Source: Verrucomicrobiaceae bacterium
GTDB lineage: Bacteria; Verrucomicrobiota; Verrucomicrobiia; Verrucomicrobiales; Akkermansiaceae
DNA length: 64,000 nt
Assembly (NCBI GenBank): GCA_027485995.1
Contig: JAIXPW010000077.1
Coordinates: 1-64,000 of the forward strand
Direction: 5' to 3'
Part shown: positions 32,264-55,157 of the stretch, one piece after another
How the letters are laid out: every line of letters starts with the position of its first letter
Position numbering within the stretch: position 1 is the stretch's first letter
The notes under the pieces: generated by a model
Databases searched by the model: none
The model's input: the letters and a program-made list of their open reading frames with translations, nothing else
What the model was told of the DNA's origin: nothing
Position numbers and translations under genes: made by a program

Positions 32264-32272
32264 CTTCCTCCC

Positions 32273-38847: not shown

Positions 38848-38850
38848 GGA

Positions 38851-40776
38851 TCAGGTGAGATAGCGGATGTTGTCGGAGGCCCTGCTGCGGATGCGGTCCA
38901 TGAAACTGCGGTAGCTGAATCGAGGCGGTGCCCCCACGCTGATGGTGGTCAGGCCGCTATCGAGGTCCAGAGTCTCGCCGCGCACGCAGGCCTTCATGGA
39001 GGCATACTCGGTCCGATGGCCGTCGAGGTTGATCACCGTGCCACGGTAGCGGGTGCCGCCTGGCAATGCCGACTTCCACGAGATGTCCCCGCTGTAAACG
39101 TCGAAGCCGTTGCTCTCCTGCATGCCGCTGGCGAACCCATCGGGCGGATTCACGAATGAGTAATCCGCCGGACGATAGACCGTCGTGAGGGTGGGATAGC
39201 TGTTGTCGATCAGCCAGACCGAGACCGAGATGGGCACCGCCACCCACCAGATCCACGTCGTGTTGCCGGTGCCGCTGGTCGAGGCGTTCGCAAATGCACC
39301 GGTCTGGCCTTTCGTGTCGATGTTCCGGGAGCCGAGAGCCGTGAACCAGTTCGGGAACGTCGTCGATCCATTCGAGCCGGTGATGCTGGCCACGTAGGCG
39401 CAGGTCAAATCGGCCTTCACCGCGCCGACCTCATTCACCAACCAATCGGGAATGTCTCCGGCGATCACCACCTGTTTCCCTGTCGCGGAAATCACGCTGC
39501 CGTTGGCCTTGTAAACCGTTCCCGCGAACGTGCTGGACGATGCCGTTTTCGGTCCGCTGGAAAACCCGGTCCAGTAGCCGATCACCGTCGTCACGCTTCC
39601 ACCGATGGTGCCATACTGCGCGATGATCCCCTTCAGGTTATCGTCCAGGGCGCGGGCAGCGGCAGTGAGGTCACCAGTCGCGGAAATGGTCTGGAGTTTG
39701 ACCGAGTCGAAGTAATCGTTCGGCAGGGTGGTGTCGATCTCCTCGCCCGACACCACATAGACCTCGCCGGTGCCGGTGCTGCTCAGTCCCCCACCGATCC
39801 GATAGGTGCTGGTGTTGCTCGGGGTCGTCGTCCACGCCGTGGAAACGGTGGCGACCTTGGTCGTGCCGTTGTAGGCGGAAATCGTTCGTGTCTGCCCGCT
39901 GCCGGTGCCGGTCAGGATCGTGATCTCAGCCCCGACGTAGCTCCCGCTGTTGGAAGACGCTGCGGACCGGAGCTTGATCGTCGTGCTCGTGCTGCCGCTT
40001 TGCGCGGTGCCAGCATCGCCAGAGAGCTGCTCGGCAAACACCCTGCGACCATCGGTGCCGCGAGTCACGAATGCCACCGTGATGGAGTCCCGCTTGAGCT
40101 GGATCTCCTTGCGCAGGCGGATGCTCAGATTGTCGCCAGCGGTCAGCGTGCGGACCGTTGCGGATTTCCGGCGAGCTGTGTTGTAGGTCGGCGTCGTAGG
40201 CGCGTAGTCGATCCACGCCATCAGGTCTGGAGTCAGCCGCACGATGTCAGCCGCGGCTTGAGCACAGGACATCTGTTTGAGCGTGATCTCCGGTGCCGCG
40301 AAGGTGCTGGCCAGTGATCCCACCGCGATGGGCACGCCCCGCGTCGCGGCCGTCGTGATGATCGTCGACAAGGATGTCGCCAAAGACTGCGAGGCGAAGG
40401 CGTAGCTCATCCGCTCTGCCGTCGCCCCGATCGAGTCGGTCTGCGTGCTCGTCAGAGGCTCCTGTTCGAGATCCCAGCCCACGCCGGAAATGACGATCCG
40501 CAGCAGTCGTCCGTCCTGTTCGACGCTTGTGCATTTGCCCTGGAAGAACCGGCTTCCGGATCTGAACACGGTCACCTTTTGCCCTTCCTCCGGATAGAGG
40601 TCGCCACCAGCCGGGACCAGCGAGGCAATCCGGATGGCGAACTTGCAGGTGTCCACCCCAAGGTCGGGGAAATCGATCACCACGCCGAACGCCTTAATCT
40701 CGGCGAAGGTGCGCGTGGTCGCGTTGAGTCGCTTCCCGGTCTCACCTTCAATGGTCCATTGCGGGGAAATGCTCAT
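38851..40776 (-). CDS. Baseplate hub-like tail protein
   Basis: 641 residues. The first 110 resemble hub proteins of the gpD/gp44 type (FGVVIDFPDLGVDTCKFAIR, PEEGQKVTVFRSGSRFFQGK, CTSVEQDGRLLRIVISGVGW). The remainder is long and beta-rich. It contains segments such as GTGSGQTRTISAYNGTTKVA, typical of phage beta-sandwich spacers. It starts four bases before the end of the tape-measure gene, as is usual in tail operons. The hub role is inferred from fold-like pattern and order. Confidence 0.6.
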   Translation of the reverse strand: MSISPQWTIEGETGKRLNATTRTFAEIKAFGVVIDFPDLGVDTCKFAIRIASLVPAGGDLYPEEGQKVTVFRSGSRFFQGKCTSVEQDGRLLRIVISGVGWDLEQEPLTSTQTDSIGATAERMSYAFASQSLATSLSTIITTAATRGVPIAVGSLASTFAAPEITLKQMSCAQAAADIVRLTPDLMAWIDYAPTTPTYNTARRKSATVRTLTAGDNLSIRLRKEIQLKRDSITVAFVTRGTDGRRVFAEQLSGDAGTAQSGSTSTTIKLRSAASSNSGSYVGAEITILTGTGSGQTRTISAYNGTTKVATVSTAWTTTPSNTSTYRIGGGLSSTGTGEVYVVSGEEIDTTLPNDYFDSVKLQTISATGDLTAAARALDDNLKGIIAQYGTIGGSVTTVIGYWTGFSSGPKTASSSTFAGTVYKANGSVISATGKQVVIAGDIPDWLVNEVGAVKADLTCAYVASITGSNGSTTFPNWFTALGSRNIDTKGQTGAFANASTSGTGNTTWIWWVAVPISVSVWLIDNSYPTLTTVYRPADYSFVNPPDGFASGMQESNGFDVYSGDISWKSALPGGTRYRGTVINLDGHRTEYASMKACVRGETLDLDSGLTTISVGAPPRFSYRSFMDRIRSRASDNIRYLT

Positions 40777-42380
40777 GGGCTTCCGGCTCCTCGATTGGCG
40801 GCTTGTTTCTTCAGGTCAGCAACATCGCGCTGGAGTTGCGCGGTCTGGCTGGCAGTCAGTCCGGCGGCTTCGATGACTCCTTTCAAGACCTCTTGCAGTG
40901 CCTGGACATCGCCCTTGTAGGTGCCGACCAGCGTCTGCACCAAGGCAGGGATCTTCTTCAGCTCCTCGGTGGTTAGACCGTCCTTGAGAAGGCTTTCAAT
41001 CTCCTTCGCCGTCTCTCCAGCCACTCCCACTTGCTCCTTGGCCATGCCGACCGCACTTGAAAGCTGACCGGCAATCGCGGTCGCGGTCTCAGCAAGGTTC
41101 TTTGAACTATCTCCCAATCCTTGAGAGAACTGCTTGTTCAAGATATTCTCAACCTCCTGGTCTCTGGCGGCCTGCTGGCGTTCGAGATTCTGCGTGGCGA
41201 TCGCCAACCCTTCATCAAAGCGATCCAGTGCCTTCGTCAGTTTCCCAGCAGTATCGCGGAACGTGTTGGCCTGCACGGCGGCAGCGTCGAGATCGTTGTT
41301 TGCAGATTGAAGCGACTGCTGAGCACGAGATTGCGTGTCAGCCTGCATGGAATTCATTCCGCTTGGATCTCGCAATGATTCCAAGAGCTTGCTCCCCAAT
41401 GTAGGACCTTCCGCCATGGACTCCAAAACCTCTTTCTGTTGCTGAAGATGGCGGACTTGCTTCTCTGCCATTTCCGCCGCGAAGATGGCATCCTGTTTCA
41501 GCCGCTCCTTGTTTTCACGGTCCTGTTGGGCAAGAAGCAGTGCGGCCCTAGCCATTTCGACCTTCTTGTTCTCAGCGTCGATTGCTTTTTGCGCATCGGC
41601 CTCTCGCTTGGCCGCCGCAGCTTGTTCCTGAGCCGCCATCTGCTCCAGTGCAGTGGTCTGACGACCGAGCAGTTGATTGAGCTGCTGCGTGACGGTGGCG
41701 ATGGTCTGGATCTGCGTCGCGTAGGCGTCGAGAGCCTTTTGCTTCGCCTCGTCTCCAGCGGTGTCAGGTGTTAGGGAAAGCTTCAGCCGCTGCTGCTCGT
41801 CTTCCAGCTCAGCCTTCCGCTTGTCCAGCTTGCTGATCGCCGCGTTGGCCGCGTTGGTCAGGACATCAGAGGAAGTCTCCTTCAGATTCGCCATCCCATC
41901 GCCTGCCGAGGTCAGAAGCGGGAGCAGTTGGTTCAATGCAACAGCCAGAATCGCAATTCCGCCAGCCCATCCCGCCGACAGCCCGAACGCCTGAGCCAGC
42001 ATCGGCACGTTGTTGACGATGCCGCGCAGACCATATTGAAGATCATCCGCAGCGTAGGCAGCTTGCAACATGTTCTGCCCAAATTTCGCGGAGTCCTTTC
42101 CGGCCTTCGTGCTACTCTCGCCGACCCTCACTGAGGAGTTTGAGACCCCGGCCAGAGCCGCGTCGAGATTGTAGGTCGCCGTCGCGGCCGTCTTCGCCTC
42201 GAAGCCCATTTCGGCGAGTCCGCGCCGGTAGCTCTGAGCCGCCGTTGTGGCCTGCGCCGTGGTCTTGCTGGCGTTGCCCGCCGCAGTCGCCACGGCCTGC
42301 ACGTCCGCCGCCGTCTGCTTGGCTCCATTGCCCTCGGCAACGGTTTTGAATTTGATCGTGTATTGGAGATCTTCGGCCAT
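40773..42380 (-). CDS. Tail tape-measure protein of the first tail module
   Basis: 535 residues, mostly helical. It has a hydrophobic stretch (LSAGWAGGIAILAVALNQLL, about 135-155) and long coiled coils (QMAAQEQAAAAKREADAQKA, ALLLAQQDRENKERLKQDAI, LQQQKEVLESMAEGP). This composition and its place between tube-like and hub-like genes are diagnostic of a tape measure. Relatively short, it would fit a short tail. It shares no obvious segment with the second tape measure at 48406-50274. Confidence 0.75.
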   Translation of the reverse strand: MAEDLQYTIKFKTVAEGNGAKQTAADVQAVATAAGNASKTTAQATTAAQSYRRGLAEMGFEAKTAATATYNLDAALAGVSNSSVRVGESSTKAGKDSAKFGQNMLQAAYAADDLQYGLRGIVNNVPMLAQAFGLSAGWAGGIAILAVALNQLLPLLTSAGDGMANLKETSSDVLTNAANAAISKLDKRKAELEDEQQRLKLSLTPDTAGDEAKQKALDAYATQIQTIATVTQQLNQLLGRQTTALEQMAAQEQAAAAKREADAQKAIDAENKKVEMARAALLLAQQDRENKERLKQDAIFAAEMAEKQVRHLQQQKEVLESMAEGPTLGSKLLESLRDPSGMNSMQADTQSRAQQSLQSANNDLDAAAVQANTFRDTAGKLTKALDRFDEGLAIATQNLERQQAARDQEVENILNKQFSQGLGDSSKNLAETATAIAGQLSSAVGMAKEQVGVAGETAKEIESLLKDGLTTEELKKIPALVQTLVGTYKGDVQALQEVLKGVIEAAGLTASQTAQLQRDVADLKKQAANRGAGSP

Positions 42381-42383
42381 CGG

Positions 42384-42815
42384 TTAGAGAGAGGTCGCCT
42401 TCCCGGCGATGAGTTTGACCGCCGTGAGGGACTGGAATCCCGTCCCCTTCACTGGCACGCTTTCACCCGATACAAACGCCGCGTTGGCGAACGAAACCCC
42501 GGTGCCGCCACTGACTTCCACCTTGAGAGTGGATGTAACATCCAACGGCAGCTCGGCGTCGAACATCAGGCAAAAATCCTGACACGCATGGAAGCTGGCA
42601 TGGTCCTTGAACACGCTCAGACTGATGTCCCGGCGCACCTGCCCTTGCGGGAAGGTCTCCACGCTTTCGCCTTCCAGCGGCTCGCTGGTCTCCACCTTGT
42701 TCGACCATGGGGCTTTGAATGCCTCGACCAGGTAGTCGTCATAATCGACGAGCACGACCTCATTGGCCCCGCCCGGATCGAACGTGATCTTCCAGTTGGA
42801 TTTCAGTCGTGCCAT
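42384..42815 (-). CDS. Small tail-module protein
   Basis: 143 residues (MARLKSNWKITFDPGGANEV). It is rich in beta strands (RRDISLSVFKDHASFHACQD, STLKVEVSGGTGVSFANAA). It sits where a chaperone or tube-related protein would be expected, directly before the tape measure. No family is recognised. Confidence 0.6.
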   Translation of the reverse strand: MARLKSNWKITFDPGGANEVVLVDYDDYLVEAFKAPWSNKVETSEPLEGESVETFPQGQVRRDISLSVFKDHASFHACQDFCLMFDAELPLDVTSTLKVEVSGGTGVSFANAAFVSGESVPVKGTGFQSLTAVKLIAGKATSL

Positions 42816-42821
42816 GAGATG

Positions 42822-43886
42822 TCAGGAGATCGCTCCGGGAGCTGTTGGACCGAGGTTGCCGCCTGCGTTGCCAGTGCTGGCACCAGGGGCCGTAGGGGCG
42901 CGATTTCCCGCCGACGACGCACCGGAAAGGCCGGGAGCCGATGGCGGATCGGGAGCGAACGCATTGGTCACCGGGTCCGGTTCTGCCGGTAGAGCTACGG
43001 TCGCCCGGATTAGGCCATTGCCGCCGCCTTCCGAGCAGAAATAGTAGCCGTCGAGCGCGGAGATGGACTGAGGCGATTGAGACCAGACGTTCTCGTCGAT
43101 CTCGTAGCTGTATCCTCCAGCGGCCCAACCCAAGGTGGAGTCTGCGTTTTGCCATTCGGTTCCGTCCCATGTCGGGTCACCGCTCGCGTAGTAGGGATAG
43201 CCGTTGACCAAACCCAGCTTGTAGAGCGTCTCTCCACCGAGGGCGGGCGTGCAGCTCGGCACGATCACGCAGCCGTCACCCGTCAGCGAGAATCCGAACA
43301 AGTTCTCCGGAGCGTCCTCCCAGTCGTCGCCTGGAGAGGTTCCCGGATTGTCCGTGAACGTCCATGTCGGCACTGCGGCCGGCGTGGCAAACGCCGATGA
43401 GGCGGACCGATAGTAGAGGATCAACTCGCCATCATAGCGAAGGTCGAACCTCCATGTGGTGCCGTCATAGTAGGCCGCACACCAGATCCCTTCAGTTGGG
43501 CCCGATGGCAGCAGCTCCTGACTGACCAGCGCGTCCGACGAGGTGCCGGTGGTCGTGTAGATCGGTCGGGAATACTCCGTCCGCCCTGGCACCTGAATCA
43601 GCGTCCCACTGTTTGGAAGGATAGGCGTAAAGTCTGGAACGAACAAGATGCCAGCCGCCTGCAGCAGAAGCGCGGAACTCGGAGCCGAGGGCTCCGCATC
43701 CCCCGCCGCCGCGCCTTTTGACAGCCCCGGCGCGGTCGGCGCAAGGTTGCCGCCCGCTGCACCGCCAGAGGTTCCCGGAGCCGTTGGAGAGGCATTCCCC
43801 GCCGAGCTCCCGGTGCTGAGACCTGGAGCGGTTGGGGCGAGGTTTCCTCCGGCATTTCCGGCAGTAGCGGTGACAGTGGGCGGCAT
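42822..43886 (-). CDS. Tail protein with terminal (G)NLAPTAPG-type repeats
   Basis: 354 residues. The N-terminal 70 residues are four near-identical units of 15-18 residues (AGGNLAPTAPGLSTGSS, AGNASPTAPGTSGGA, AGGNLAPTAPGLSKGA). Three related units close the protein (SAGNRAPTAPGASTGN, AGGNLGPTAPGAIS). The middle is a beta-rich domain with many Trp/Tyr (GIWCAAYYDGTTWRFDLRYD, SYEIDENVWSQSPQSISALD). The collagen-like or spacer ends around a globular core suggest a virion surface or fibre protein. Confidence 0.6.
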   Translation of the reverse strand: MPPTVTATAGNAGGNLAPTAPGLSTGSSAGNASPTAPGTSGGAAGGNLAPTAPGLSKGAAAGDAEPSAPSSALLLQAAGILFVPDFTPILPNSGTLIQVPGRTEYSRPIYTTTGTSSDALVSQELLPSGPTEGIWCAAYYDGTTWRFDLRYDGELILYYRSASSAFATPAAVPTWTFTDNPGTSPGDDWEDAPENLFGFSLTGDGCVIVPSCTPALGGETLYKLGLVNGYPYYASGDPTWDGTEWQNADSTLGWAAGGYSYEIDENVWSQSPQSISALDGYYFCSEGGGNGLIRATVALPAEPDPVTNAFAPDPPSAPGLSGASSAGNRAPTAPGASTGNAGGNLGPTAPGAIS

Positions 43887-43931
43887 GACAGTTGTCCGTT
43901 TCGAATTTCAGATTTCGAGCTTCGCGCTTTC
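43887..43931 (-). repeat. Short-word repeat leader before the repeat-flanked tail gene
   Basis: On the minus strand the leader reads CGAAGCTCGAAATCTGAAAT then TCGAAACGG, an imperfect 8-10 bp periodic repeat of (T)CGAAA, ending 12 bp before the ATG at 43886. No Shine-Dalgarno is present. Confidence 0.6.
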
Positions 43932-44468
43932 TTAGGCTGGCAGGTTGTAGGCGTTCAGCGTCGAGAACGGACGCACCACGCGGCAGGTGAACTTGAACTC
44001 CTGCACGCCCTTCTTGATGTCCGGCGTGTCCATGACACGGATCTCGATCCAAGCATCGAGCAGCGAGTGGTCAGTGCCGGTGTGCTTGCGCTCCTGGATT
44101 TTGATCCAGCCGCGCAGCTTGCGGTCACTGGTGACAAACGGCGACTGAGCGGTGCCATGAGTGATCGCTCCGGCGAGCCCCATCTGAAGCTGGCGGAACA
44201 GATCGGTTGCGCGCTTGCTGGTGATCTCGAAATCATCGGCGACCGAGAATTCATTGATCTCCTGTCCCCAGCCTTCAGCGGTCACGATGTCATCTTCAGA
44301 GGAGACCTTGACGGGCTTGTGCTTGAATGATTGGACGGCGAACAGTTCCTTCCAGGCCGAGTTGTTGGCGGCTGGCTTGGTGGCGCTGTCGGAGGTCCCG
44401 GAGGCCTCCACAGCGAAATATACTAATGCTCCTGCGAAAAGGAGTTCAGATCCGGCGAGTTGTGCCAT
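43932..44468 (-). CDS. Tail-tube-like structural protein (first module)
   Basis: 178 residues. The pattern of short beta strands and one helix (TAEGWGQEINEFSVADDFEI, DLFRQLQMGLAGAITHGTAQ, LLDAWIEIRVMDTPDIKKGV, EFKFTCRVVRPFSTL) fits major tail tube proteins. So does its position just after the gp37-like gene and before the tape measure. Its leader is C/A-rich (ACCACCAACTCTCAACCAAC) without Shine-Dalgarno. Confidence 0.6.
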   Translation of the reverse strand: MAQLAGSELLFAGALVYFAVEASGTSDSATKPAANNSAWKELFAVQSFKHKPVKVSSEDDIVTAEGWGQEINEFSVADDFEITSKRATDLFRQLQMGLAGAITHGTAQSPFVTSDRKLRGWIKIQERKHTGTDHSLLDAWIEIRVMDTPDIKKGVQEFKFTCRVVRPFSTLNAYNLPA

Positions 44469-44508
44469 GGTCGTAGTTGGTTGAGAGTTGGTGGTTCAGG
44501 AGATGGGT

Positions 44509-44706
44509 TCAGACGCCGTCGATGCGGACCTTTCCGAGGTCGGCCAGTGCTTTGGCGGTCGCTTCGGGAAGGTGGATCGATTTGCCGGCCGCATGATGGC
44601 AGCCTTCGATCAGGGCGCCGTTTTCGATGACCGTGCACGCGAACTGCACGGGGCTTGCGGGTGCAGTTGTTTCGGCAGGTGCGGCTGCATCGGTTGTCGA
44701 TTTCAT
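44509..44706 (-). CDS. Small phage protein, function unknown
   Basis: 65 residues with an Ala/Pro/Thr-rich N-terminus and a compact C-terminal part (FACTVIENGALIEGCHHAAG, LPEATAKALADLGKVRIDGV). It lies between gp37-like and tube-like genes and starts five bases after the upstream stop. Short proteins at this place occur in Mu-like phages (gp38 region), but no relation is proven. Confidence 0.55.
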   Translation of the reverse strand: MKSTTDAAAPAETTAPASPVQFACTVIENGALIEGCHHAAGKSIHLPEATAKALADLGKVRIDGV

Positions 44707-44711
44707 GATGG

Positions 44712-45200
44712 TCAGAACTGAGTTTCCCTCTGGAAGGTGATGGAGTAGGCCACGAAATCGGGATCGGGCATCGGCGTGAAGGAGATCGCCGAAAGCCGCT
44801 CCTGCCAGGGAACGCCGACCACGTTGATTTCGGCAGCGTGCAGAAGGCGGATGACATCCATCGTCAGGAGCATGGACTTGCGCCCCTTGTTGACGGCCCG
44901 CTGCGTGTAGATCTGAATGTCGAACTGGATCTCGAACCGCGGCTGTTCCATCTCGGGCGAGACGTTCTTTCCGCCCCCGGCGATGATCACCGCACTGACA
45001 CCAGTCCGAGAGACCGCGCTCACGATCATCTCGTTCAGGTCCGCTGCCGACTTCTCTGTCGTCATGATCGCGACGTTTTGCGGCTTGAACTCGGGCAGGC
45101 TGGCGGCATCGACCAATGTGGTACGGATCACCGCGAGCATCGGATCGACCACGTCGTCAGGGATGCTTGTCGTTGCCTGGATTGGATCGGCTGAGGGCAT
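44712..45200 (-). CDS. Tail completion / terminator-like protein (Mu gp37-like position)
   Basis: 162 residues. The helix-strand layout (MLAVIRTTLVDAASLPEFKP, FEIQFDIQIYTQRAVNKGRK, MLLTMDVIRLLHAAEINVVG, VAYSITFQRETQF) resembles tail terminator/completion proteins. It directly follows the gp36-like gene, as in Mu-like and siphophage head-tail junction clusters. The assignment rests on order and general pattern. Confidence 0.6.
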   Translation of the reverse strand: MPSADPIQATTSIPDDVVDPMLAVIRTTLVDAASLPEFKPQNVAIMTTEKSAADLNEMIVSAVSRTGVSAVIIAGGGKNVSPEMEQPRFEIQFDIQIYTQRAVNKGRKSMLLTMDVIRLLHAAEINVVGVPWQERLSAISFTPMPDPDFVAYSITFQRETQF

Positions 45201-45203: not shown

Positions 45204-45659
45204 TCAGAAATCGAGGAGGGTGGATCCGCCATAGGTAGCGGAGGCCGATTCGGTGCTTGGGTCGCTTCCGAAGGCCCCGGATTTCATGGTCGGGAGGGCT
45301 TTCAGGAAATCCTTGGCGAGGTTGTATTCATCGCGGCGAGGGTCAGTCATTCCGACCGGCACCGGGTTTAGCCCGATGGCGGCAACTCGACCGATGACAG
45401 CGGCCTCGGCAATGCAGAAGTCGGGAAGGGTCCCCGCTGGACCCATCTCGGTGACATAGGGGTTCTCGAGGATTGCCCCACGGAAACGTGCGAGGACCTG
45501 CTCGGCGATGATCGGAAGCCGCTCAGGCGTGCCAGGTGGAACGCTGGGCTCGGTATCGCCTTCCTCCCAGACGCTGCGGGAAGATCCTTCGTAGGTCTCG
45601 ACCTCGCTCGCAGTCATGCGGGCCTTGATGTCGTCAGCAGTGAAGGCGGTCCATGTCAC
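45204..45659 (-). CDS. Head-tail connector-like protein (gp36/DUF1320-like position)
   Basis: 151 residues from a GTG start that overlaps the stop of a truncated upstream frame (GTGA). The helical pattern (FTADDIKARMTASEVETYEG, RLPIIAEQVLARFRGAILEN, LPDFCIAEAAVIGRVAAIG, YNLAKDFLKALPTMKSGAFG) matches adaptor proteins of the gp36/DUF1320 kind. A second, unrelated gp36-like gene lies at 54688-55113. This is the most head-proximal gene left in the first module. Confidence 0.6.
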   Translation of the reverse strand: MTWTAFTADDIKARMTASEVETYEGSSRSVWEEGDTEPSVPPGTPERLPIIAEQVLARFRGAILENPYVTEMGPAGTLPDFCIAEAAVIGRVAAIGLNPVPVGMTDPRRDEYNLAKDFLKALPTMKSGAFGSDPSTESASATYGGSTLLDF

Positions 45660-45820
45660 GCCACGAGGGATGCACGGTCACGGATTCCCTCTCCATCCTC
45701 GCCAGTGGTCCCCACGAAAAAGCCCCGTCCGCTTGTAATTTCGCGAAAATCGTGGAACACTTCCGCTAGGAAAGTTTGAAAAGGGTCATCGGGTTTTCGA
45801 GCTTTTTGACATGAAAAGGG
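45656..45820 (-). pseudogene. Truncated 3' end of a phage gene at the module junction
   Basis: 54 codons without start: residues include KPDDPFQTFLAEVFHDFREI and TSGRGFFVGTTGEDGEGIRD, ending RASLVA-stop. The composition is protein-like and the stop overlaps the gp36-like start (GTGA), so it was the upstream partner of that gene. Its 5' end is cut at a TGA that belongs to a different, in-frame small gene. It probably is the C-terminus of a head or head-proximal protein of the first phage, whose remainder has been displaced. Confidence 0.55.
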
Positions 45821-45823
45821 TCA
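45777..45823. repeat. 12-bp direct repeat TGAAAAGGGTCA at the junction of the two phage modules
   Basis: Copies lie at 45777-45788 and 45812-45823, 35 bp apart. The stretch between them is AT-richer than anything nearby. One copy overlaps the stop codon of the small gene on the right, and the other lies inside the truncated gene on the left. This marks the boundary between two phage modules. Confidence 0.7.
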
Positions 45824-45979
45824 GGTGGCGGGAGTGCCGCCGGGGGCTGGCGAGGGGGTGGCCGGGTGGCGGCCGGGGCAGGTCGGACAGGGGCGAATCA
45901 GGGTCTGGCCCTGGTAGGTGTCGCCCTGCCCGGCGGGTGCGCCCTTCAGCTTCCAGGTGACAGCGCCGGCGTGGGCCAC
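45821..45979 (-). CDS. Small Cys/Pro-rich phage protein
   Basis: 52 residues from GTG 45979, 16 bases after the stop of the upstream gene. It has an N-terminal AHAGAVTWKLKGAPAGQGD and then LIRPCPTCPGRHP, a likely single zinc or metal knuckle. It has the high-GC composition of the phage genes to its right and is their last member. The start is uncertain: upstream in-frame codons reach 46045 inside the neighbouring gene. Confidence 0.4.
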   Translation of the reverse strand: MAHAGAVTWKLKGAPAGQGDTYQGQTLIRPCPTCPGRHPATPSPAPGGTPAT

Positions 45980-45995
45980 CCTGGGGAAAGTCCGC

Positions 45996-47093
45996 TTACT
46001 CGGGGGGGATGAATGACTCGCCGAGGAACTGGGGCTTGGCTCCATAAAGGGTTGGGCGGTAGCAGGTGAATGCGATGTTCCGGATCTGGATGGTGCCGGC
46101 GCTTTCAGGGGCCTCGATCTCGATCCAGTCGGTCAGGCGCGAAGGGTCATCGTCGCCTCCTTCGCCTGGGCCGGTCCATTCAAGGGAGTGCTCGGAAACG
46201 ATCGAGGGCGGCGTGCCTCCTTCTTCTTCCCAGTCGGCAGGGTAAAAAACCAGGTCCGCCTCGATTTTGAAATAGCTCCCGGTGTGCGTGGATGGGATGC
46301 GGAAACGGAAGCGGGCCTTGGTCAGGCTGGAAATGCTATCAGGGCAATCCGGCGGAATCAGGCGCGAGGCGCTGCAATCGCCGGTCTCGCCATCGTCCTC
46401 CCAGGTCTTGCTGGCCAGTTCTGCGGCTAGAGTCTCTGGGGTGACGGGATCTGAGAACACCACCGAAAGGGTCCGCGTGCCGGCCGGGCCAGTGATGGCC
46501 TCCGACTTGGTATAGGTGCTTCCGGAGAATGACCAGCCTGCCCCTGGGCTGTGGGAAACGACCGGGCAGATGTTGTACGGGCCGCTGTCGTTGTTCTCGG
46601 AATCGACGGCATCGGTAAACGAGTAAGATCCAGAGCAGGCGGCAGCGAGGGAGCTGGATGACGTGTTGCTATCGGTCTGGTCTGACCACACGGCACCATC
46701 AGAGTCGAAGGTCTGAACTTCCTGACTGGAGTAGCTATGGCTGGTCGCAATTCTCCGATCAGCACACTCGCCGGCCTCATTTCGATAGAATTCGGAGGTG
46801 GTGGTATCGGTGCGGGCGAGCGTGGTCAGTCGATGGGCCGGCGATCCGAGAATCGTGGTCGGCACTGACTCAGATCCACTCTCCGTCGTGCTATCCGTCC
46901 GCGTCTTGTAAAGGGTGCATCGGTCCTCGGCGGGCGGCGTCTCCTCATCGATCACAGGCAGCTCGTAGCCGCAGGGCTCAACAGTGATGGCCTCACAGAC
47001 CAACTGCGGGGCCGGGCATTCCGGCATGGCGCAGCAGTTGCAAAGCGCCAGCCTGGCGTTCCAATCGGAAAGGGTCTGGATCGTGGGCGGCAT
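45996..47093 (-). CDS. Distal tail-module protein with Cys-rich N-terminus
   Basis: 365 residues. The first 50 contain several Cys (LALCNCCAMPECPAPQLVCE, TVEPCGYELP). The rest is Ser/Thr-rich and beta-like (TTILGSPAHRLTTLARTDTT, FRFRIPSTHTGSYFKIEADL, ESAGTIQIRNIAFTCYRPTL). It overlaps the upstream stop by one base (TGATG). It lies at the distal end of the second tail operon, so a fibre or tip role is plausible. No family is recognised. Confidence 0.55.
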   Translation of the reverse strand: MPPTIQTLSDWNARLALCNCCAMPECPAPQLVCEAITVEPCGYELPVIDEETPPAEDRCTLYKTRTDSTTESGSESVPTTILGSPAHRLTTLARTDTTTSEFYRNEAGECADRRIATSHSYSSQEVQTFDSDGAVWSDQTDSNTSSSSLAAACSGSYSFTDAVDSENNDSGPYNICPVVSHSPGAGWSFSGSTYTKSEAITGPAGTRTLSVVFSDPVTPETLAAELASKTWEDDGETGDCSASRLIPPDCPDSISSLTKARFRFRIPSTHTGSYFKIEADLVFYPADWEEEGGTPPSIVSEHSLEWTGPGEGGDDDPSRLTDWIEIEAPESAGTIQIRNIAFTCYRPTLYGAKPQFLGESFIPPE

Positions 47094-47677
47094 CAGCCTC
47101 GGATGTAGGAAAGGGTTCCCGGGCAGTGGGCGATTTGAAAGTTCCCACAGCCAGCCGGGCGGAAAGTGTCATCCATCCAATCGCCCAGCGGGATGTAAAG
47201 GGTGCCGGAGGTGCTCGCGGCCGTGGGCAGATCGTTCGAGGGGATCGTGGATCCGGAGCCGATCGAGGCTGAGGTAGCATCGCCACCAGGCATCAGAACA
47301 TCGTCCACCTCGGCCGCGCTGAAGGAGACTTCCAGCCAGACCTGGGTTTCATCCGCCGGGGGTGAGGAAACGGTCCCGATCGAGGTGTCGGAAACGGTGA
47401 TCGAGCCCTCGCCGCCTGTCACCACCCCGCCACGGAGCATGATCGCGGTGCCGTCGATGTAGGTATCCGCGAAGGGACAGTTGGCATCGGCCGCCGCGCC
47501 GCCGCCCAGGGCATTGATGAAGGTGCCGGTGGGGGTGACATCCACGGTCACGTTCTTTCCGGGGCGGACGCGGCCACGGGCCAGCAAGTCCATGATCCGG
47601 TTCGCGGTCGATCCGCGCAGCAGAATGATTTTTCCCGGAGGAAACCGGGGGATCGGGGTCTTGTCTCCGCCTGCCAT
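47093..47677 (-). CDS. Tail-module protein, function unknown
   Basis: 194 residues. The N-terminus PRFPPGKIILLRGSTANRIM is followed by VRPGKNVTVDVTPTGTFINA and a beta-rich C-terminal part (ETQVWLEVSFSAAEVDDVLM, TSGTLYIPLGDWMDDTFRP). It is closely packed in the operon on both sides. It is probably structural and appears specific to this phage group. Confidence 0.55.
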   Translation of the reverse strand: MAGGDKTPIPRFPPGKIILLRGSTANRIMDLLARGRVRPGKNVTVDVTPTGTFINALGGGAAADANCPFADTYIDGTAIMLRGGVVTGGEGSITVSDTSIGTVSSPPADETQVWLEVSFSAAEVDDVLMPGGDATSASIGSGSTIPSNDLPTAASTSGTLYIPLGDWMDDTFRPAGCGNFQIAHCPGTLSYIRG

Positions 47678-47680
47678 GGT

Positions 47681-48406
47681 TCAGCCTCCAGAGGGTCGCT
47701 CTTGTTCGTAGAAAACGTGGGTATCGGTCACGGCCCAGCAAACCTCATTGCCGGTGGCATCCCGGATCGTTGGGCCGCCGCGATCTTCCAGCACCCATCC
47801 GGCGGGGTAGATGTAAACCGGATCCGCGATTCCGGCCCACTTGCTGGTGGGCGCTGTGGGCAGGTTCGGGTAGCCGGCGGGCAGCGCATTGTAGCCAATG
47901 GTGGTGCCGCTGGTGGTGTCTGCCAGCTTGGTCAGATCCGGCGCGGTGGTGGTGACGTAGCTGGTCTTGCAGGTCAGCACCGCTTCGTTTGAGCGGACGT
48001 TGAAGGTGGATGGGTAGGTGTAGGGGTAGCCGGATGGCGTGGTGACTGAGACGTTCGAGGCACTGCCCTGCTGCACCACGCCAGCGGCCTCCCGGTAGTA
48101 GCGCAGAGGTCCGATGCGACCATGGAAAACGATCTGCACCAGGAACAGGTCCTGCATCATTTCCCGGCCGCTGCCCTTCTTCACCCAGAGCGTATCCGTG
48201 CCCAGGCGCGTGCCGGTGGGAAAATGGGTCAGGACCACTTCCCTCACGGTCTCCAGGGCACTGCGGACCAGGTAGGAGCGGGTCACCTCGTCAAAGCCCC
48301 CACCGTCGCCCGCCGGAGACTCTTCCTCCATGAGGAACATCGGCGTGTCCCATTCGAGATCAGCGGCGGCAATGAGAATGCCCAGGGGATGGAGATCAGC
48401 AAACAT
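47681..48406 (-). CDS. Tail-module protein downstream of the tape measure
   Basis: 241 residues: MFADLHPLGILIAAADLEWD, SALETVREVVLTHFPTGTRL, MMQDLFLVQIVFHGRIGPLR, YPSTFNVRSNEAVLTCKTSY. Its start overlaps the stop of the tape measure. Genes at this place usually encode distal-tail or hub proteins. The YPY word recalls repeats in the protein at 36698-37738 of the first module. The role is inferred from order only. Confidence 0.55.
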   Translation of the reverse strand: MFADLHPLGILIAAADLEWDTPMFLMEEESPAGDGGGFDEVTRSYLVRSALETVREVVLTHFPTGTRLGTDTLWVKKGSGREMMQDLFLVQIVFHGRIGPLRYYREAAGVVQQGSASNVSVTTPSGYPYTYPSTFNVRSNEAVLTCKTSYVTTTAPDLTKLADTTSGTTIGYNALPAGYPNLPTAPTSKWAGIADPVYIYPAGWVLEDRGGPTIRDATGNEVCWAVTDTHVFYEQERPSGG

Positions 48407-50274
48407 CAGACAGCTTCCAGGAGGGTGAGGCGACCATCGATCCCCATCAGCGCGGCGTGGATCTTTTCCAGGGGATCGAGCAAGGGGTTCCGGCCATCAG
48501 CGGCGGGAGGGCGGTTGGCGCCGGCCACCGCCTGATTGCCGGCGTTGTTGATGCCGTCGATCTGCTTCTTCAGCGGGGTGGAACGGCGCTTCTGAGCTTG
48601 GCGGCGCTTCCAGGCTTCGTGCTCGGCATCGTCCATGGAGGATTCCGGGAGGCGCTTGCTATCGGCGGCGGACCGGCGATTCATGCGGGCGCGCCAGCTT
48701 TCCTCGGAGTCCTTCAGCCGGATCCGGCGGCGTCCCTCGCCCTCGCCATCTTCCGCACCGCCAGTCTTCGCCACCGGCTTTTGAAGGTTGCTCTTGGCAT
48801 CCGCGAGGGCCTTGGCCAGACCGTCCGCGCTGGTCTTGATCTTCGTCGCGCCTTCTTCGCCCGCCTTCTTGACGGCCGTGCCGTTGATGGCATCGGTGAA
48901 ACGCTTCAGCGCCTCAGGATTCGCCGCGTTCCCCAGATCCCGGAACTTCTGCTTGTCCTCCGTGAGGTCGAAGAAGGGTGTGCCCTTGGCCTTGGTGGCG
49001 GCCTCATTGCCCTTGAAGTCTGCATACCGCAGCTGCTGCACCAGGGCATTGAGCTCGCCGCCGATGTCCGCCGTGTTCATGTTCGCACGGGCCGCGCCGA
49101 AGTAGATCCCGGCACGCTGGCCAGACTGAGCGGACGCATCGCGGACATCTGATGCTTTCTTCTCGAAGGCAGGGCCAAGCCCATCCAGGAACGTGGCCGC
49201 GCCAGCTTCCAGCTCAGAGCGCAGCAGGTTCGCCACGCCGCTGAAGATCGCCTCGAAGAATGCCTGGATGCGCGGCGAGGTGATCTCATTGCGGAAGATC
49301 AGCGCAGCGATGGGCAGGGCCGTGCCCAGATAGGCCGTGACCGACTGAGCGCCGGACAGCAGCACGTTCACCAGGCTCTTGCCACCCAGCACCAGCGAGG
49401 TGCCGATCAGCTCGCCAAAGTTCCCCTGGCTACGGGCGGCGGACATCAGATCGATGAAGGCGGCCATCCCTTCCCCCAGGCGACCGGCCATCGCGATGCC
49501 ATCCTTCAGCATCGGGCGGATGGCGTCATTGATCGGCTGGCCGATGATCCGGAAGATCTCGCCGATGTTGTCCTGGAGAGTGGACCAGAGGCCATTGATC
49601 GTGCCGCTCTGTTCCTGCATCATGTTGAAGAACTGGCCGCCCTTCGAGGTCAGGTTGATGAAGGCCTGTTCGAGCAGCGGGAAGGTGATCTTCCCTTCAG
49701 AGGCCAGGCCCTTCACCTCGGATTCGGTCACGCCGAGTATCTTCGCGAACTGGGAAATGACCGGGATACCCCGGCCGGTCAGCTGGTTGATGTCCTCCGC
49801 GAAGAGCTGGCCCTGGACGCGGGCCTTGCCGTAGATCTCGGCGATTTCTCCGATCGGGGCCTGCACGCCGCTGGCCACGTCTCCGATGCGGGTCAGCGCC
49901 TGGGTGACCGTGCCGGCGCTTTCACCGAAGGCGATGAGCTTCCGGCCGGCGTCCGCCAGCTCGGGGAACTCGAAGGGAGTGGCAGCTCCCAGCGCCTTCA
50001 GTTCATTCAGAGTCTTCTTCGCCAGGTTGGCATCGCCCACCAGCGTCTTGAACGCCACTGAGGTGCTTTCCATGTCGGCAGCGGAACTGATCGCCTTCTT
50101 CAGCAGGCCCGCCGCACCGGCCACGCCGAGCAGTGGCCCGGCCACCAGAGCGGCCTTTGCCATCAGGCTGGTCATTGATCCCCGGAACGCGCCCACCGCG
50201 CCCTGGGCGGCGCTCAGTGGATTCATGAAACCCCCGGTCTGGAGTCCCAGGGTGTAGAACATGCCTTGGCTCAT
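48406..50274 (-). CDS. Tail tape-measure protein of the second module
   Basis: 622 residues. The N-terminal 250 residues match the tape-measure N-terminal domain (VAGAAGLLKKAISSAADMES, FKTLVGDANLAKKTLNELKA, GAATPFEFPELADAGRKLIA, QLFAEDINQLTGRGIPVISQ). Hydrophobic helices are in the middle (SVTAYLGTALPIAALIFRNE), and charged helices close the protein. It overlaps the end of the frameshifted chaperone by four bases, the classical order of tail operons. It sets tail length and passes through the membrane on infection. Confidence 0.9.
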   Translation of the reverse strand: MSQGMFYTLGLQTGGFMNPLSAAQGAVGAFRGSMTSLMAKAALVAGPLLGVAGAAGLLKKAISSAADMESTSVAFKTLVGDANLAKKTLNELKALGAATPFEFPELADAGRKLIAFGESAGTVTQALTRIGDVASGVQAPIGEIAEIYGKARVQGQLFAEDINQLTGRGIPVISQFAKILGVTESEVKGLASEGKITFPLLEQAFINLTSKGGQFFNMMQEQSGTINGLWSTLQDNIGEIFRIIGQPINDAIRPMLKDGIAMAGRLGEGMAAFIDLMSAARSQGNFGELIGTSLVLGGKSLVNVLLSGAQSVTAYLGTALPIAALIFRNEITSPRIQAFFEAIFSGVANLLRSELEAGAATFLDGLGPAFEKKASDVRDASAQSGQRAGIYFGAARANMNTADIGGELNALVQQLRYADFKGNEAATKAKGTPFFDLTEDKQKFRDLGNAANPEALKRFTDAINGTAVKKAGEEGATKIKTSADGLAKALADAKSNLQKPVAKTGGAEDGEGEGRRRIRLKDSEESWRARMNRRSAADSKRLPESSMDDAEHEAWKRRQAQKRRSTPLKKQIDGINNAGNQAVAGANRPPAADGRNPLLDPLEKIHAALMGIDGRLTLLEAV

Positions 50275-50595
50275 TTTTGTGGGGTCTTAGGGGTGGGAAC
50301 GATCCGGTAGTTATCCTTCAGCCAGGCGGTGACTTCCTCACGCTTTGAAAGGCTGGCCTTGTCTCCGTAGCCGGGGCCGCTGGCGGTGTGGCCCAGGCGC
50401 TCCGCCCGCACCGGCAGCAGGGCGAAGGCGGCCCGGATCGGGAACCGGAAGACTGCCTCGTGAAGGGTCTGCCGGTATTCCGCCATCAGGAGTTCGATGA
50501 GGGCGGGAGCCCATCCGCAGACGGGGCCTCCGCTGGCTCGGGTGATGGAGGTGGCGCCGGGCTTGGTTCGCTCTCGGGTGAGTTGCTTTTTTTTT
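50271..50595 (-). CDS. -1 frame extension of the tail assembly chaperone (gpGT-like)
   Basis: This frame carries no plausible start of its own near the overlap. From the A9 run it reads KKKQLTRERTKPGATSITRA, then GWAPALIELLMAEYRQTLHE and RFPIRAAFALLPVRAERLGH, and ends 3 bp inside the tape-measure start. About 107 codons are read only if ribosomes slip -1 on the A9 run. In lambda-like tails the analogous GT fusion is made in small amounts to assemble the tape measure. The 218-codon open frame starting at 50927 is mostly a shadow of the upstream gene. Confidence 0.75.
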
Positions 50596-51136
50596 CCGGG
50601 GTGGCCTCGCCGAAGAACTCTTGCATCTGGCCGTTGATGAAGACGTTCACGGCATTGAGCACCGGAGCCGTCATGGAGAAACTCAGTTCGACGGCCGCAC
50701 GTTTCAGCTCCGCGATCTGGCCAGCTTCCAGCAGCTCGTAGGCCCACTCCGGACGCTGGAAGACGAGGGCGGCCAGGGCGATGTCCAGCTGCTTCACCAC
50801 CATGGGCGATCCGTCTGCATTCTCGGCGGCATAGACGCTGCCGAGCTTTTCCAGTGCCAGGAAGGTGCCGATGGAAAGCGGCCGCATCGGAATGCCGGCC
50901 ACGTCCAGCATGTCCGCCCGCGCCCACGCCGCGCCGATGACCATGGAGGAAGTGGCAGCAGGATCGCCAGCGGCGGCCAGGGCCTGCTCGCGGGCGGCCA
51001 CGCCGGAAACATGGCTGTGCCAGTTCGCCTCCATCTGAGTCATCAGCGGAAGGCCCGTCTGCGGACAGACGGGGCGGGGCTGGCCGTTTGGCAGGAAGGC
51101 CGGATCTGGACCGGTGAGGGGGAATTGTGGATTCAT
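50486..51136 (-). CDS. Tail assembly chaperone (gpG-like), frame 0
   Basis: 216 residues from the ATG at 51136, preceded by GAGGACACCGC, one of the few Shine-Dalgarno-like sites here. It has VCPQTGLPLMTQMEANWHSH, ALAALVFQRPEWAYELLEAG and LSFSMTAPVLNAVNVFINGQ, then an acidic/Pro-rich tail after the slippery site. Its place between tube and tape measure and the frameshift signal define it as the short chaperone. An in-frame start at 51166 overlaps the upstream stop and is less likely. Confidence 0.75.
   Translation of the reverse strand: MNPQFPLTGPDPAFLPNGQPRPVCPQTGLPLMTQMEANWHSHVSGVAAREQALAAAGDPAATSSMVIGAAWARADMLDVAGIPMRPLSIGTFLALEKLGSVYAAENADGSPMVVKQLDIALAALVFQRPEWAYELLEAGQIAELKRAAVELSFSMTAPVLNAVNVFINGQMQEFFGEATPEKKSNSPESEPSPAPPPSPEPAEAPSADGLPPSSNS
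50587..50595 (-). promoter_or_regulatory. Slippery A9 run for programmed -1 frameshifting
   Basis: On the minus strand frame 0 reads GAA AAA AAA AGC and the -1 frame reads GGA AAA AAA AAG. Nine consecutive A allow tRNA-Lys slippage. The homopolymer is exceptional in this GC-rich operon and sits where G/GT frameshift sites normally are. Confidence 0.8.
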
Positions 51137-51162
51137 GCGGTGTCCTCTGGGTAGCGGGGTGA

Positions 51163-51921
51163 TCAATCGTAGTTGGAGTTATTCACCACGGCACCGGCGG
51201 AGATCGCTCCCAGTGGCACGCCGCGCAGACTCTGGAAGACGCTGCCGCTGCCCGGCGCGTGGGCCAGGGTGCAGGTCTCGCCGAGATAGATCCGGGTGGA
51301 GAGATTGTAGATGATGGAGGACGTGCCGCTGCCGGAGGCGTAGATCGCACTCACGGAACCGGATCCGCTGGCATCCACCGTGATGCCGGTCACGATGACT
51401 GGCACGCTGCATGGCTCGCTCATCACGAGGGTCAGTTGATCACCCGCCGCGTTGATGGTGGCGCTGGTGATGGTGGGGGCTACGGTATCCACTTCCACGG
51501 TGTCCACCAGAGGAGTCCAGGCGCTGCCGTCGTAGCTCTCAGCGGTCTCACCGGTAAGGCTGTCCCACTTGGTGGCCTGGATGGTCATCATGCGGCCGGT
51601 GGCGTCTTCCCAGTCGATCGAGATGTCCAGGATGCGACCGACCACTTCCACCAGCGGGAAAACGATCTGCTCGCCGATGCCCGGGGCATCCTTTTCCGCC
51701 GTGAAGAGCACCTTGAGGGTCAGCTCGAAACGCGGCTTCTTGAGGATGGCGGCCTTCAGCGCACCCTTGGCGTTGTCGAGTTCTTCCTTGTCCGCCGTGC
51801 GCTTGATGCCGGCGCTCTTGACCTCGCCGAAGGCATCGGAGATCTGGCAGGTGCCGAAGATGATGTTCTGCGGATCTTCCGCGATGACGATGAAACCGGG
51901 GTATTGAGTGGCGAGGGCCAT
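51163..51921 (-). CDS. Major tail tube protein with C-terminal Ig-like extension (second module)
   Basis: 252 residues. The N-terminal 150 have tube-protein character (FGTCQISDAFGEVKSAGIKR, RFELTLKVLFTAEKDAPGIG, VGRILDISIDWEDATGRMMT, IQATKWDSLTGE). From about 145 a Thr/Ser/Gly-rich Ig-like domain follows (TVAPTITSATINAAGDQLTL, TGITVDASGSGSVSAIYASG), a common decoration of siphophage tubes. It is immediately upstream of the chaperone pair. Confidence 0.75.
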   Translation of the reverse strand: MALATQYPGFIVIAEDPQNIIFGTCQISDAFGEVKSAGIKRTADKEELDNAKGALKAAILKKPRFELTLKVLFTAEKDAPGIGEQIVFPLVEVVGRILDISIDWEDATGRMMTIQATKWDSLTGETAESYDGSAWTPLVDTVEVDTVAPTITSATINAAGDQLTLVMSEPCSVPVIVTGITVDASGSGSVSAIYASGSGTSSIIYNLSTRIYLGETCTLAHAPGSGSVFQSLRGVPLGAISAGAVVNNSNYD

Positions 51922-51933
51922 GGGATCAGGTGG

Positions 51934-52527
51934 TTAGTGGACGGTGAGAGAATCAGTGGGAGCTTCCAGGGAGACGCGGATGACGGTGGGCTCAGCGGGC
52001 AGGGCGGCGGCCGCCACGAAGTCGAGCTGGTGTTGGCGGGTCTCCAGACCTTCGATCAGGAGCCAGTTGGAACCTTCCAGCGCCCAGCCCTTGGAATCGA
52101 CTCCGCAGCCATCCGGAAAGCGCATGGCGCGGAACCAGCGGGAAACGGTCTCGATCCGGCTCAGCAGTGGCGGCGCTCCGGCGGGGCCTGAGCGGTGAAG
52201 CGTTTCCGCCTGGCGGACCGCGAGGCCTTTCGGGGCCTGCACGATCGCAAAGATCCGGTGTTGCCCCATGCCGAGAATCGCATCCGGGTGGCCACCGTAG
52301 CCGGGCCAGCCGATGATCACGCGCCACTTGGGCGGGGCCACGGCCAGCATCTCGATCGCATGCTCTGGATCACTGGCCACATCCAGCACGCCGAGCTGCT
52401 CAGTCACGAGAGGGCGGAGCGTGTTCTCCACGCAGCGCAGCATCTCGTCGGCAGTCATCGGCATGACGCGGAGACTGCCAGCCTCCCCCACCGCCTGCAT
52501 CTGACAGTGGCGGGAGTGGCGGGTCAC
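51934..52527 (-). CDS. Tail terminator/completion-like protein (second module)
   Basis: 197 residues from a GTG overlapping the stop of the upstream fibre gene (GTGA). An ATG at 52464 (MPMTADEMLRCVENTLRPLV) is an alternative start. The body has RVIIGWPGYGGHPDAILGMG, HRIFAIVQAPKGLAVRQAET, RFPDGCGVDSKGWALEGSNW and LETRQHQLDFVAAAALPAEP. That strand-helix arrangement and the position before the tube gene fit Mu gp37-like/terminator proteins. Confidence 0.6.
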   Translation of the reverse strand: MTRHSRHCQMQAVGEAGSLRVMPMTADEMLRCVENTLRPLVTEQLGVLDVASDPEHAIEMLAVAPPKWRVIIGWPGYGGHPDAILGMGQHRIFAIVQAPKGLAVRQAETLHRSGPAGAPPLLSRIETVSRWFRAMRFPDGCGVDSKGWALEGSNWLLIEGLETRQHQLDFVAAAALPAEPTVIRVSLEAPTDSLTVH

Positions 52528-54659
52528 TGAACATGGTCGGAAACGACGTTGTAGGGCGTGGGAACTAGGTTTGTGACATTTCCGCCGAGGCCATTCGCAT
52601 CGTTTGATGCGTTGTTCATGCGGCAGTGATAGGCCGCAACGCTCTTGGCAGTGGCAGCGTAAATTGGAACACCGGTGCTGCCTTGGAACACAATGATGTC
52701 CGAGTTGGAAATGACGCTGGTGGAATCCAGTAGCTCAACCGCATTTATCCCGCTGGTGATTGTGGTGATCCTTGAATCTCGAATGGTAGCGCCCTCTAAA
52801 GACATTGGCAGCTCGTTCCCGGTCACCGTGCAACGGACCAATGTTCCGGTGCATTTACCCCCATAGCCGGATTGATTCCCACCGAACGATCCTGATCCCG
52901 CGAAGCAGTCCTCCGCGTATCCCGCAAATGTTCCAGACGTGCTAGGATCGCTGTTCGTGCTACCGAAGCAACCAGCTCCGCCACGGCAACGGATAAACGT
53001 GCCATTGATTGTATTGCCGATCCCGAATGAAGTGTTTCCAGCAACACATTCAAGAAACACGACTCCGGCTGGAATGGAGATCCCAGTGATGTTACAGCCC
53101 GCAAATCCGCATGCTCCTTCTACTCCGTCAAACGAGTATCCAATGCAAACGCACCTTTCAAATCTGGTCGATGGATCAATCGAGTAAAATGGCTTTCTGG
53201 CCTCTGTTGGATAGTCTCCAACAAATGAGAATGGACCAGCCATGCAATCATACATTTTTGCTGAGAAAACTGCCGTTGGCGCAATCTTATCGCCGTAGCC
53301 ACAACGAAAGGACGCCGAATTGGAAACGCATCCAATCCATGTTCCCGAAAAGCTTTCATAGGCACGAACTCCACCGCAGGTTGCGAACGTTGAGCACGCA
53401 CTCCAGAAATACATGTCCTGATAAAGAGAGGTTGCGTTGTCGCATCCAGGACCGATCAGAAGCGCACCCCAATCAAGGGCATCAAGAAACAGGTTTTCCG
53501 AAAGAAATCCGACACCAAGCCCAAGGTGTGCGACGGTGAATCCGTAAAGCTTCACATTGTCTGCCAGCTGCGTGATGGTGCTCACATAATCCGTCTCAGA
53601 ATAGACCACAGTGAAGCCTGGTCGATAGGTTGAAAAGTCGATCGGGTTCGATTCTCCAATGTTATCCACATCAAACTCCCTACGCGGAGAGGGCTTAGCG
53701 GGCACAGAGGCAATGAGATCCACGAACTCTCCATCAAGTGTCAACGTGGCCGTCAGTTTGTAGTTTCCGGGAGGGATCGAAACGGCAGCGCGGTTGAATG
53801 CTGATAGAGCCAGCCCGTTTGGCGTCAGAAGCTTCGCGGCTTCGTATGCGGCAACTAGAGCAGCTCCCCGCTGCAAATCGGTGCCAGAGGGATCAACAAA
53901 CACAATAGCGTTGCCATAGAGAGTTCCAGTGATGCCCTGGAAAGTGAATCTGACATCATCGCCAGCCGCCACCGTGCCGGCCGCCGTGCCCACATTCCGG
54001 GTCGCTGCATCGCCAAGATCTGCGATGTCAGCAGCGGAGTGAGTGTGAGCCAGAGGGGTTCTGGCATCACTGAAGCGGGAGTCATCCCCCGCCGCTACGG
54101 TGCCAGCCGTCGTGCCCACATTCCGGGTCACACTGTCGCCGAATCCAAAGTTGGAGATCAGTTGTGCCTGCTCTTCGCCGTTCAGCACCGCCGTTTTGTC
54201 AAACCGGGGAGATCTAGCATCCAGCCACTGCTCGGGATCAGGTTGAGCCAGCGGCGTGCCTTCATCGCCCGTGATCACCGGGCGCAGCACAGAGAGCGGC
54301 ACGGTCTGGGAAACAAAGTCGCCTTCCTCCGCCTGGATTTGGATCTCGCAGACGGTGTCCAGCTTCTTGGCGGTGCCGATGGCCTCATTGAATGCCACCG
54401 TGTTGAAGCTGAGAACGGCGGTGTAGCCAGTGGAGTCTGCCGTCCATTCGTTGATCGTGACCAGCGACTCGGCATTCTCGATCGCATCTTTTACCATGAA
54501 GGTGATCACCGGATCAGTGAAAGTGGCCCGGTTTTTACCGCGCCAGCATTCCAAGCGTAACACAGAGGGCAGGCCCCATTTTGCGACATAAACCGCCTTT
54601 GCGCCGCCTCGTGGCGCACTCAGAAGACTGCTTTGATCGAGATCGAATGTGAGAAGCAT
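52524..54659 (-). CDS. Tail fibre / beta-helix receptor-binding-like protein
   Basis: 711 residues. The N-terminal 150 residues form a virion-attachment part (SVLRLECWRGKNRATFTDPV). Two repeats TRNVGT(T/A)AGTVAAGDD follow (about 185-240, with ARTPLAHTHSAADIADLGDA), a pattern common in fibres. A long parallel beta-helix (SIPPGNYKLTATLTLDGEFV, GTFIRCRGGAGCFGS, GTFAGYAEDCFAGSGSFGG, GTLVRCTVTGNELPM) with many Cys makes up the rest. Base composition from about 52.6 to 53.7 kb is visibly AT-richer than the neighbours. Its location between the gp36- and gp37-like genes is unusual for a fibre gene. Confidence 0.7.
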   Translation of the reverse strand: MLLTFDLDQSSLLSAPRGGAKAVYVAKWGLPSVLRLECWRGKNRATFTDPVITFMVKDAIENAESLVTINEWTADSTGYTAVLSFNTVAFNEAIGTAKKLDTVCEIQIQAEEGDFVSQTVPLSVLRPVITGDEGTPLAQPDPEQWLDARSPRFDKTAVLNGEEQAQLISNFGFGDSVTRNVGTTAGTVAAGDDSRFSDARTPLAHTHSAADIADLGDAATRNVGTAAGTVAAGDDVRFTFQGITGTLYGNAIVFVDPSGTDLQRGAALVAAYEAAKLLTPNGLALSAFNRAAVSIPPGNYKLTATLTLDGEFVDLIASVPAKPSPRREFDVDNIGESNPIDFSTYRPGFTVVYSETDYVSTITQLADNVKLYGFTVAHLGLGVGFLSENLFLDALDWGALLIGPGCDNATSLYQDMYFWSACSTFATCGGVRAYESFSGTWIGCVSNSASFRCGYGDKIAPTAVFSAKMYDCMAGPFSFVGDYPTEARKPFYSIDPSTRFERCVCIGYSFDGVEGACGFAGCNITGISIPAGVVFLECVAGNTSFGIGNTINGTFIRCRGGAGCFGSTNSDPSTSGTFAGYAEDCFAGSGSFGGNQSGYGGKCTGTLVRCTVTGNELPMSLEGATIRDSRITTITSGINAVELLDSTSVISNSDIIVFQGSTGVPIYAATAKSVAAYHCRMNNASNDANGLGGNVTNLVPTPYNVVSDHVQ

Positions 54660-54687
54660 TGGAACTTGGTCTTTAGAACTTGATCCT

Positions 54688-55113: not shown

Positions 55114-55124
55114 GAGAGGGAAAG

Positions 55125-55157
55125 AAAAACCCGGCGGGGACAAGCCGCCGCCGGGTT
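55125..55157 (-). terminator. Intra-operon terminator after the major capsid gene
   Basis: On the minus strand a 10-bp perfect GC-rich stem (AACCCGGCGG / CCGCCGGGTT) with a 10-base loop is followed by TTT and C. It lies 34 bp after the capsid stop and 12 bp before the next start. It probably raises capsid over tail expression. Confidence 0.75.

Follow-up and report, generated by a model that had tools for sequence, protein, structure and literature searches.

We found that contig C32 almost certainly carries one prophage nested within another: a 33.5-kb Mu-like transposable phage (phage B, the inner phage) lies inside an older, tRNA-integrated prophage (phage A, the outer one) and parts the head genes of A from its tail genes. 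The window, that is, the whole stretch of DNA analyzed, comprises the first 64,000 nucleotides of the contig (C32:1-64000), and coordinates above 64000 are contig positions past its right edge. C32 is 135,406 bp long and belongs to a 5.7-Mb assembly of 269 contigs that is 84% complete. The genome is placed in Akkermansiaceae, and its named relatives in the same family group are Haloferula luteola, a Rubritalea MAG and an Akkermansiaceae MAG. The preliminary description of the window had proposed that a Mu-like phage entered a resident prophage between its head and tail genes, and that the rest of the first phage should then follow the far end of the second. Extending the analysis along the contig past the window, we observed that the head genes of A indeed follow the far end of B. 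The two halves of A flank a complete B, and identical 34-bp att repeats enclose all three parts, which supports the proposed insertion.

The left half of A contains its tail module (35856-45200, minus strand), which is 33-75% identical and collinear in the viral contig L114 and is matched by profiles from Akkermansiaceae prophages. The first five tail genes lie at 44712-45200, 44509-44706, 43932-44468 (the tube gene), 42822-43886 and 42384-42815, and the last five at 40773-42380, 38851-40776, 37735-38847, 36698-37840 and 35856-36740. A tyrosine integrase gene (34958-36001, plus strand; Pfam Phage_integrase, 1.1e-8; phrog_1, 2.2e-35) adjoins attL, whose 34-bp core (34801-34834) is inside the tRNA-Arg(CCT) gene at 34767-34839. 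Regarding the right half (C32:79238-106564), all the genes from X to the portal lie on the minus strand, as do the tail genes of A: gene X (C32:79285-79686), the major capsid protein (C32:79722-80663; 51% identity with its homologue in a viral contig), the protease (C32:80702-81718, phrog_328), a further gene (C32:82744-83409) and the portal (C32:83406-85559; phrog_113, 4.8e-70). The right half also holds RecE/YqaJ-type and methylase genes, and a CI-like/S24 repressor (C32:104902-105690) is found near attR (C32:106531-106564), whose 34 bp are identical to the attL core. Without B, phage A measures about 38.2 kb. Given the att repeats in the tRNA gene, the tyrosine integrase and the CI-like/S24 repressor, A is a site-specific temperate prophage in tRNA-Arg(CCT). 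A does not share the lifestyle of Mu, since it has this integrase and these att repeats instead of a transposase; its portal, of a Mu-type family (phrog_113), is its sole Mu-like trait.

Two further features of this region deserve mention. Phage A has a gene of its own for tRNA-Met(CAT), at C32:87072-87148 (L003:5072-5148). Besides, a second element (27882-34806) lies on the opposite side of the same tRNA-Arg(CCT): 40 bp of the 3' half of the tRNA recur at 27882-27921, beside a further tyrosine integrase gene (27974-29356, plus strand). Two different integrases hence use this tRNA gene, one from each half.

To compare A with its relatives, we built profiles from the prophage genes of four genomes (G004, G007, G058 and G057) and searched them against all 1003 ORFs of C32. 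The profiles matched A on both sides of B in a single collinear order. On the head side, we obtained matches for the portal (2e-87), the protease (4e-42), the capsid (1e-66) and X (1e-9), and past B, on the tail side, for a 65-aa gene (1.5e-4), the tube (4e-3), 38851-40776 (2e-6) and 35856-36740 (3e-24). These collinear relatives are about 30-40% identical to A, and several of the tail-side matches, such as that of the tube, are weak. Three related prophages keep these head and tail genes, parted by B in C32, side by side and in unchanged order. In the comparison with intact relatives asked for in the preliminary description, A-type prophages are seen without B and B-type phages alone. We found no close relative of A that has the insertion site empty. 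An exact 19-mer of the empty site had a single match in viral contigs (L113), which we discarded as chance because L113 has no A genes.

Phage B spans C32:45734-79237 (45734-64000 within the window; minus strand), is 33,504 bp long and ends in ...GTTTTTTCA. Its tail module (45996-54659, minus strand), identified with PHROGs and collinear in the related phages G084, G608 and G609, includes the tape measure gene (48406-50274) and a tail protein gene (52524-54659), both on the minus strand. The head module (55191-60685, minus strand; PHROGs) encodes the major capsid (55191-56096), a virion structural protein (56148-56705), a protease (56752-57771), a neck protein (57829-58341) and a gpF-like minor head protein (58973-60685), all on the minus strand. 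The product of 60712-61203 has a weak match to a Mom-like DNA modification protein (phrog_1384, 1.3e-6), as in Mu. Further along the minus strand we found genes for Gam (C32:65696-66280; Phage_Mu_Gam, 5.8e-10, above the cutoff), an AAA transposition protein (C32:66646-67674; AAA_22, 2.6e-12; phrog_296 'DNA transposition protein', 3e-9), a 597-aa transposase (C32:68228-70021; L002:6228-8021) that this MuB-like ATPase adjoins, and ParB (C32:70257-71318), for which tblastn gave no match in G608. The plus strand carries a CI-type HTH repressor (C32:71897-72424), TerS (C32:75144-75818), the ATPase part of TerL (C32:75815-76714), its nuclease part (C32:76850-77554) and the portal (C32:77551-79107; Portal_Mu, 3.8e-56).

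The layout of B is therefore divergent: the packaging block, TerS, the two TerL genes and the portal, reads outward to the right end, and the genes from ParB, transposase and AAA protein through gpF, protease, capsid and tail read to the left end. The two divergent blocks recur in G084 and G608-G611, and the gene order of Mu and B3, with early genes at one end and terminase, portal, head and tail in one operon, is absent from all of them. TerL is divided into two genes (C32:75815-77554; L002:13815-15554) in B, in G084 and in four viral contigs. In both B and G084 the first part stops after ...KAA*/QAA*, and the two parts are separated by one small gene in B and by two genes in G084, so a sequencing error does not explain it. 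A limited search of the literature on split terminases turned up nothing that matches. Between the portal and the right end (C32:79107-79237; L002:17107-17237) there is no gene in B or G611, three genes in G084, one of them for a collagen-like fibre, and about 3 kb in G608; from this distribution, the interval looks like a variable cargo or fibre slot.

B begins and ends with TG..CA at 45734 and 79237. Of the 28 bases at each terminus, 18 match as an inverted repeat, and B is bordered by a direct CGCT repeat (45730-45733 and C32:79238-79241), the target duplication. No other TG..CA pair in the two junction zones combines a repeat of at least 4 bp with an 18/28 inverted end match; the 4-bp repeat could by itself be chance and is not significant alone. 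By scanning with a position weight matrix, we located seven transposase-site-like repeats: three reading outward at the left end (45741-45823, minus strand, with 5' starts at 45764, 45788 and 45823) and four matching ones at the right end (79105, 79127, 79187 and 79207, plus strand), with two exact copies of TGAAAAGGGTCA. The left end aligns with that of G608, with unrelated flanks (TGTAACGCCGCGAAAATCGTGAAACACTT against TGTAATTTCGCGAAAATCGTGGAACACTT), and the start TGTAA is shared by G609, G610, G611 and G084, whose flanks also differ from those of B. Since these free relatives with other flanks start at TGTAA, the left end of B is fixed exactly. For the same reason, we rejected ends at an outer inverted repeat, GAAA(AA)GCCCCG(T/C)CCGC, at about 45716/79257. 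We also rejected the TG..CA pair at 45777/79138 with a 5-bp AAGTT repeat, which lies inside the repeated transposase sites, has an end match of 13/28 against 18/28 and conflicts with the relatives ending at TGTAA. Searched against 254 family genomes, the left-end sequence matched this genome only, and the right-end sequence gave its own match and three short, weak ones.

An independent insertion allowed us to check the length of the duplication. The related phage in Haloferula luteola (G084, contig C5:63114-100771) has ATGG on both sides and 18/28 matched ends, and removing it together with exactly 4 bp restored a 1415-codon host gene. In G095 the homologue of this gene is intact, and its N- and C-terminal parts lie next to each other without any change in length where they join. 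The target duplication was thus 4 bp in both testable insertions (CGCT for B and ATGG for G084). This count leaves out the phages of the metagenomic contigs G608 and G611 and of G508/G511/G333, in which the flanks are too short or unmatched or the ends were not located.

Regarding the junction, which the preliminary description had placed within 45656-45998, we could confirm it and narrow it down to 45733/45734. As described, the two operons meet in frame at a TGA (45821-45823), which ends the last small gene of B (45821-46045, minus strand) and directly precedes a 54-codon frame (45659-45820, minus strand) that was likewise present; the stop of this frame, TGA at 45656-45658, overlaps the GTG start of the gene at 45204-45659. 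The last small gene of B, encoding 74 aa, is genuine, with 76% identity over its full length in G608. The 54-codon frame had been taken for the 3' end of a truncated gene. Our data contradict this: codons 1-29 lie in the terminal repeat region of B and codons 30-54 in the flank of A. We rejected it as a gene, because the relatives G058 and G004 have no equivalent: in both, gene X and the counterpart of 45204-45659 are about 5-30 bp apart, with nothing between. This chimeric open frame is, judging from the comparison, most likely a chance one and not a gene. Joined in silico, the flanks of A leave a region of 117 bp. Its single 35-codon frame runs on into the downstream frame but lacks conservation, and this continuity is weak evidence as to the ends of B. 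As the 54-codon frame is most likely not a gene, the target of B would have been this short intergenic region (117 bp when joined). The gene left of the junction (45204-45659, minus strand) had been called gp36-like, and this is right as to its position, which is kept in G004 and G058. Its product, in turn, had no match in PHROGs or Pfam and only weak similarity to that of the equivalent G058 gene (E 0.008), and the gp36-position protein gave no matches as a search query.

One could argue that the two phages were brought together by homologous or illegitimate recombination, giving a mosaic without transposition, and this was the alternative offered by the preliminary description. Head and tail module swaps at this boundary are common: L114 (IMGVR_UViG_3300036945_000763) has the whole tail module of A, with a 75% identical tube, but an unrelated head module. 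The head/tail boundary where B inserted is, judging from this contig, also a natural module boundary at which shuffling occurs. A simple mosaic, however, predicts neither end of B, which is complete: it has its two ends, a direct repeat at its flanks and a transposase, and it is followed, inside the att sites, by the other half of A. Recombination is therefore not needed, and we consider it very improbable.

The junctions are known from the assembly alone, and in an assembly this fragmented prophages of different cells might have been joined by the assembler. Yet both junctions fall exactly at the biological ends of B, and the flanks are complementary halves of one phage within identical att repeats, which a chance mis-join would not give; an assembly chimera is in our view exceedingly improbable. 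Finally, the A and B operons are co-directional and meet in frame, as they might in a single natural phage whose two tail modules come in this order. We looked for an intact phage of this kind and found none, B-type phages occur alone with other flanks in at least six contigs or genomes, and A-type prophages occur without B, so that this last explanation is scarcely credible.

According to the insertion of B into A, phage A would first have lysogenised the host through its own tyrosine integrase, at tRNA-Arg(CCT). Phage B would have infected this lysogen later, its transposase inserting the 33.5-kb genome, with duplication of CGCT, in the short intergenic stretch that separates gene X, the neighbour of the major capsid gene, from the start of the tail cluster. 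The late operon of A is now in two pieces. B would be the younger arrival, and A has probably lost the ability to form particles, given a split late transcript and an excisable length that has grown from about 38 to about 72 kb. The leftward late transcript of B could, in turn, read into the co-directional tail genes of A. The junction makes the order in which two phages arrived in this chromosome clear, and it illustrates how a resident competitor can be silenced by a transposable phage.

We then analyzed the transposase of B, which has no confident match in Pfam or PHROGs; Mu-transpos_C was weakly matched by two of 12 transposase homologues. A profile of the protein (A1) searched against the PDB matched TnsB (7svw, 3e-9) and MuA (1bcm, 8e-5), the matches lying in the C-terminal half, plus a weak stretch at an N-terminal HTH, and outside the catalytic core. 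Homologues occur across Verrucomicrobiota, and in a distant alignment the invariant acidic residues are D180, D181, D209, E253 and E296. At the putative second catalytic position, all 12 aligned homologues have E, within LERGxW or LEGGxW. From the position of the motif, E253 (LERGxW) appears to replace the second catalytic D of MuA/TnsB. The AlphaFold model of the transposase was of low confidence (pLDDT 55), too low to bear on this replacement or to serve in a fold search.

Phage B resembles Mu and the other transposable phages (Saltoviridae sensu Hulo et al.: Mu, B3, D3112, BcepMu and KS10) in its TG..CA ends, the transposase sites repeated inward from them, a putative TnsB/MuA-type transposase, an AAA transposition protein, Gam, and a Mu-type portal and head genes, as well as in its insertion outside conserved sites and a genome of about 33-36 kb. 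It differs in the target duplication, which is 4 bp in both testable cases but 5 bp for Mu and 6 bp for B3 (PMC8705779). Unlike in Mu and B3, TerS, TerL and the portal are divergent at the right end with head and tail genes running to the left end, TerL is in two genes, and the transposase is too divergent for Pfam or PHROGs. GemA and Mor had no Pfam match among the early proteins scanned, a search that divergent homologues would escape. A close parallel is the prophage of Haloferula luteola YC6886 (NZ_JACHFD010000005.1, about 63114-100771), collinear with B (capsid 56% and transposase 54% identity) and sharing its divergent layout, split TerL and 4-bp duplication; it differs in being inserted in a host gene and in the additional fibre-like genes that follow its portal on the way to the right end. 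Considering its divergent packaging end with a two-gene TerL, a candidate TnsB/MuA-type transposase with a putative D-E-E instead of D-D-E triad and staggered target cuts of 4 bp instead of 5 or 6, we see an even case for and against B representing an undescribed group of transposable phages in Verrucomicrobiota. Its family departs from Mu and B3 in duplication length, terminase and layout, and widens the range of MuA/TnsB-type transpososomes for structural comparison.

As regards the nesting, the cases in E. coli are presumably site-specific integrations of lambdoid type, whereas the guest in C32 is transposable and the lysogen belongs to Verrucomicrobiota. Prophages that integrate into prophages are known in E. 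coli, and they resemble C32 in having a complete prophage within another whose genes it splits (PMC8112680). The nesting itself is thus a known kind of event, and what is probably new is the guest phage, as a variant among the transposable phages.
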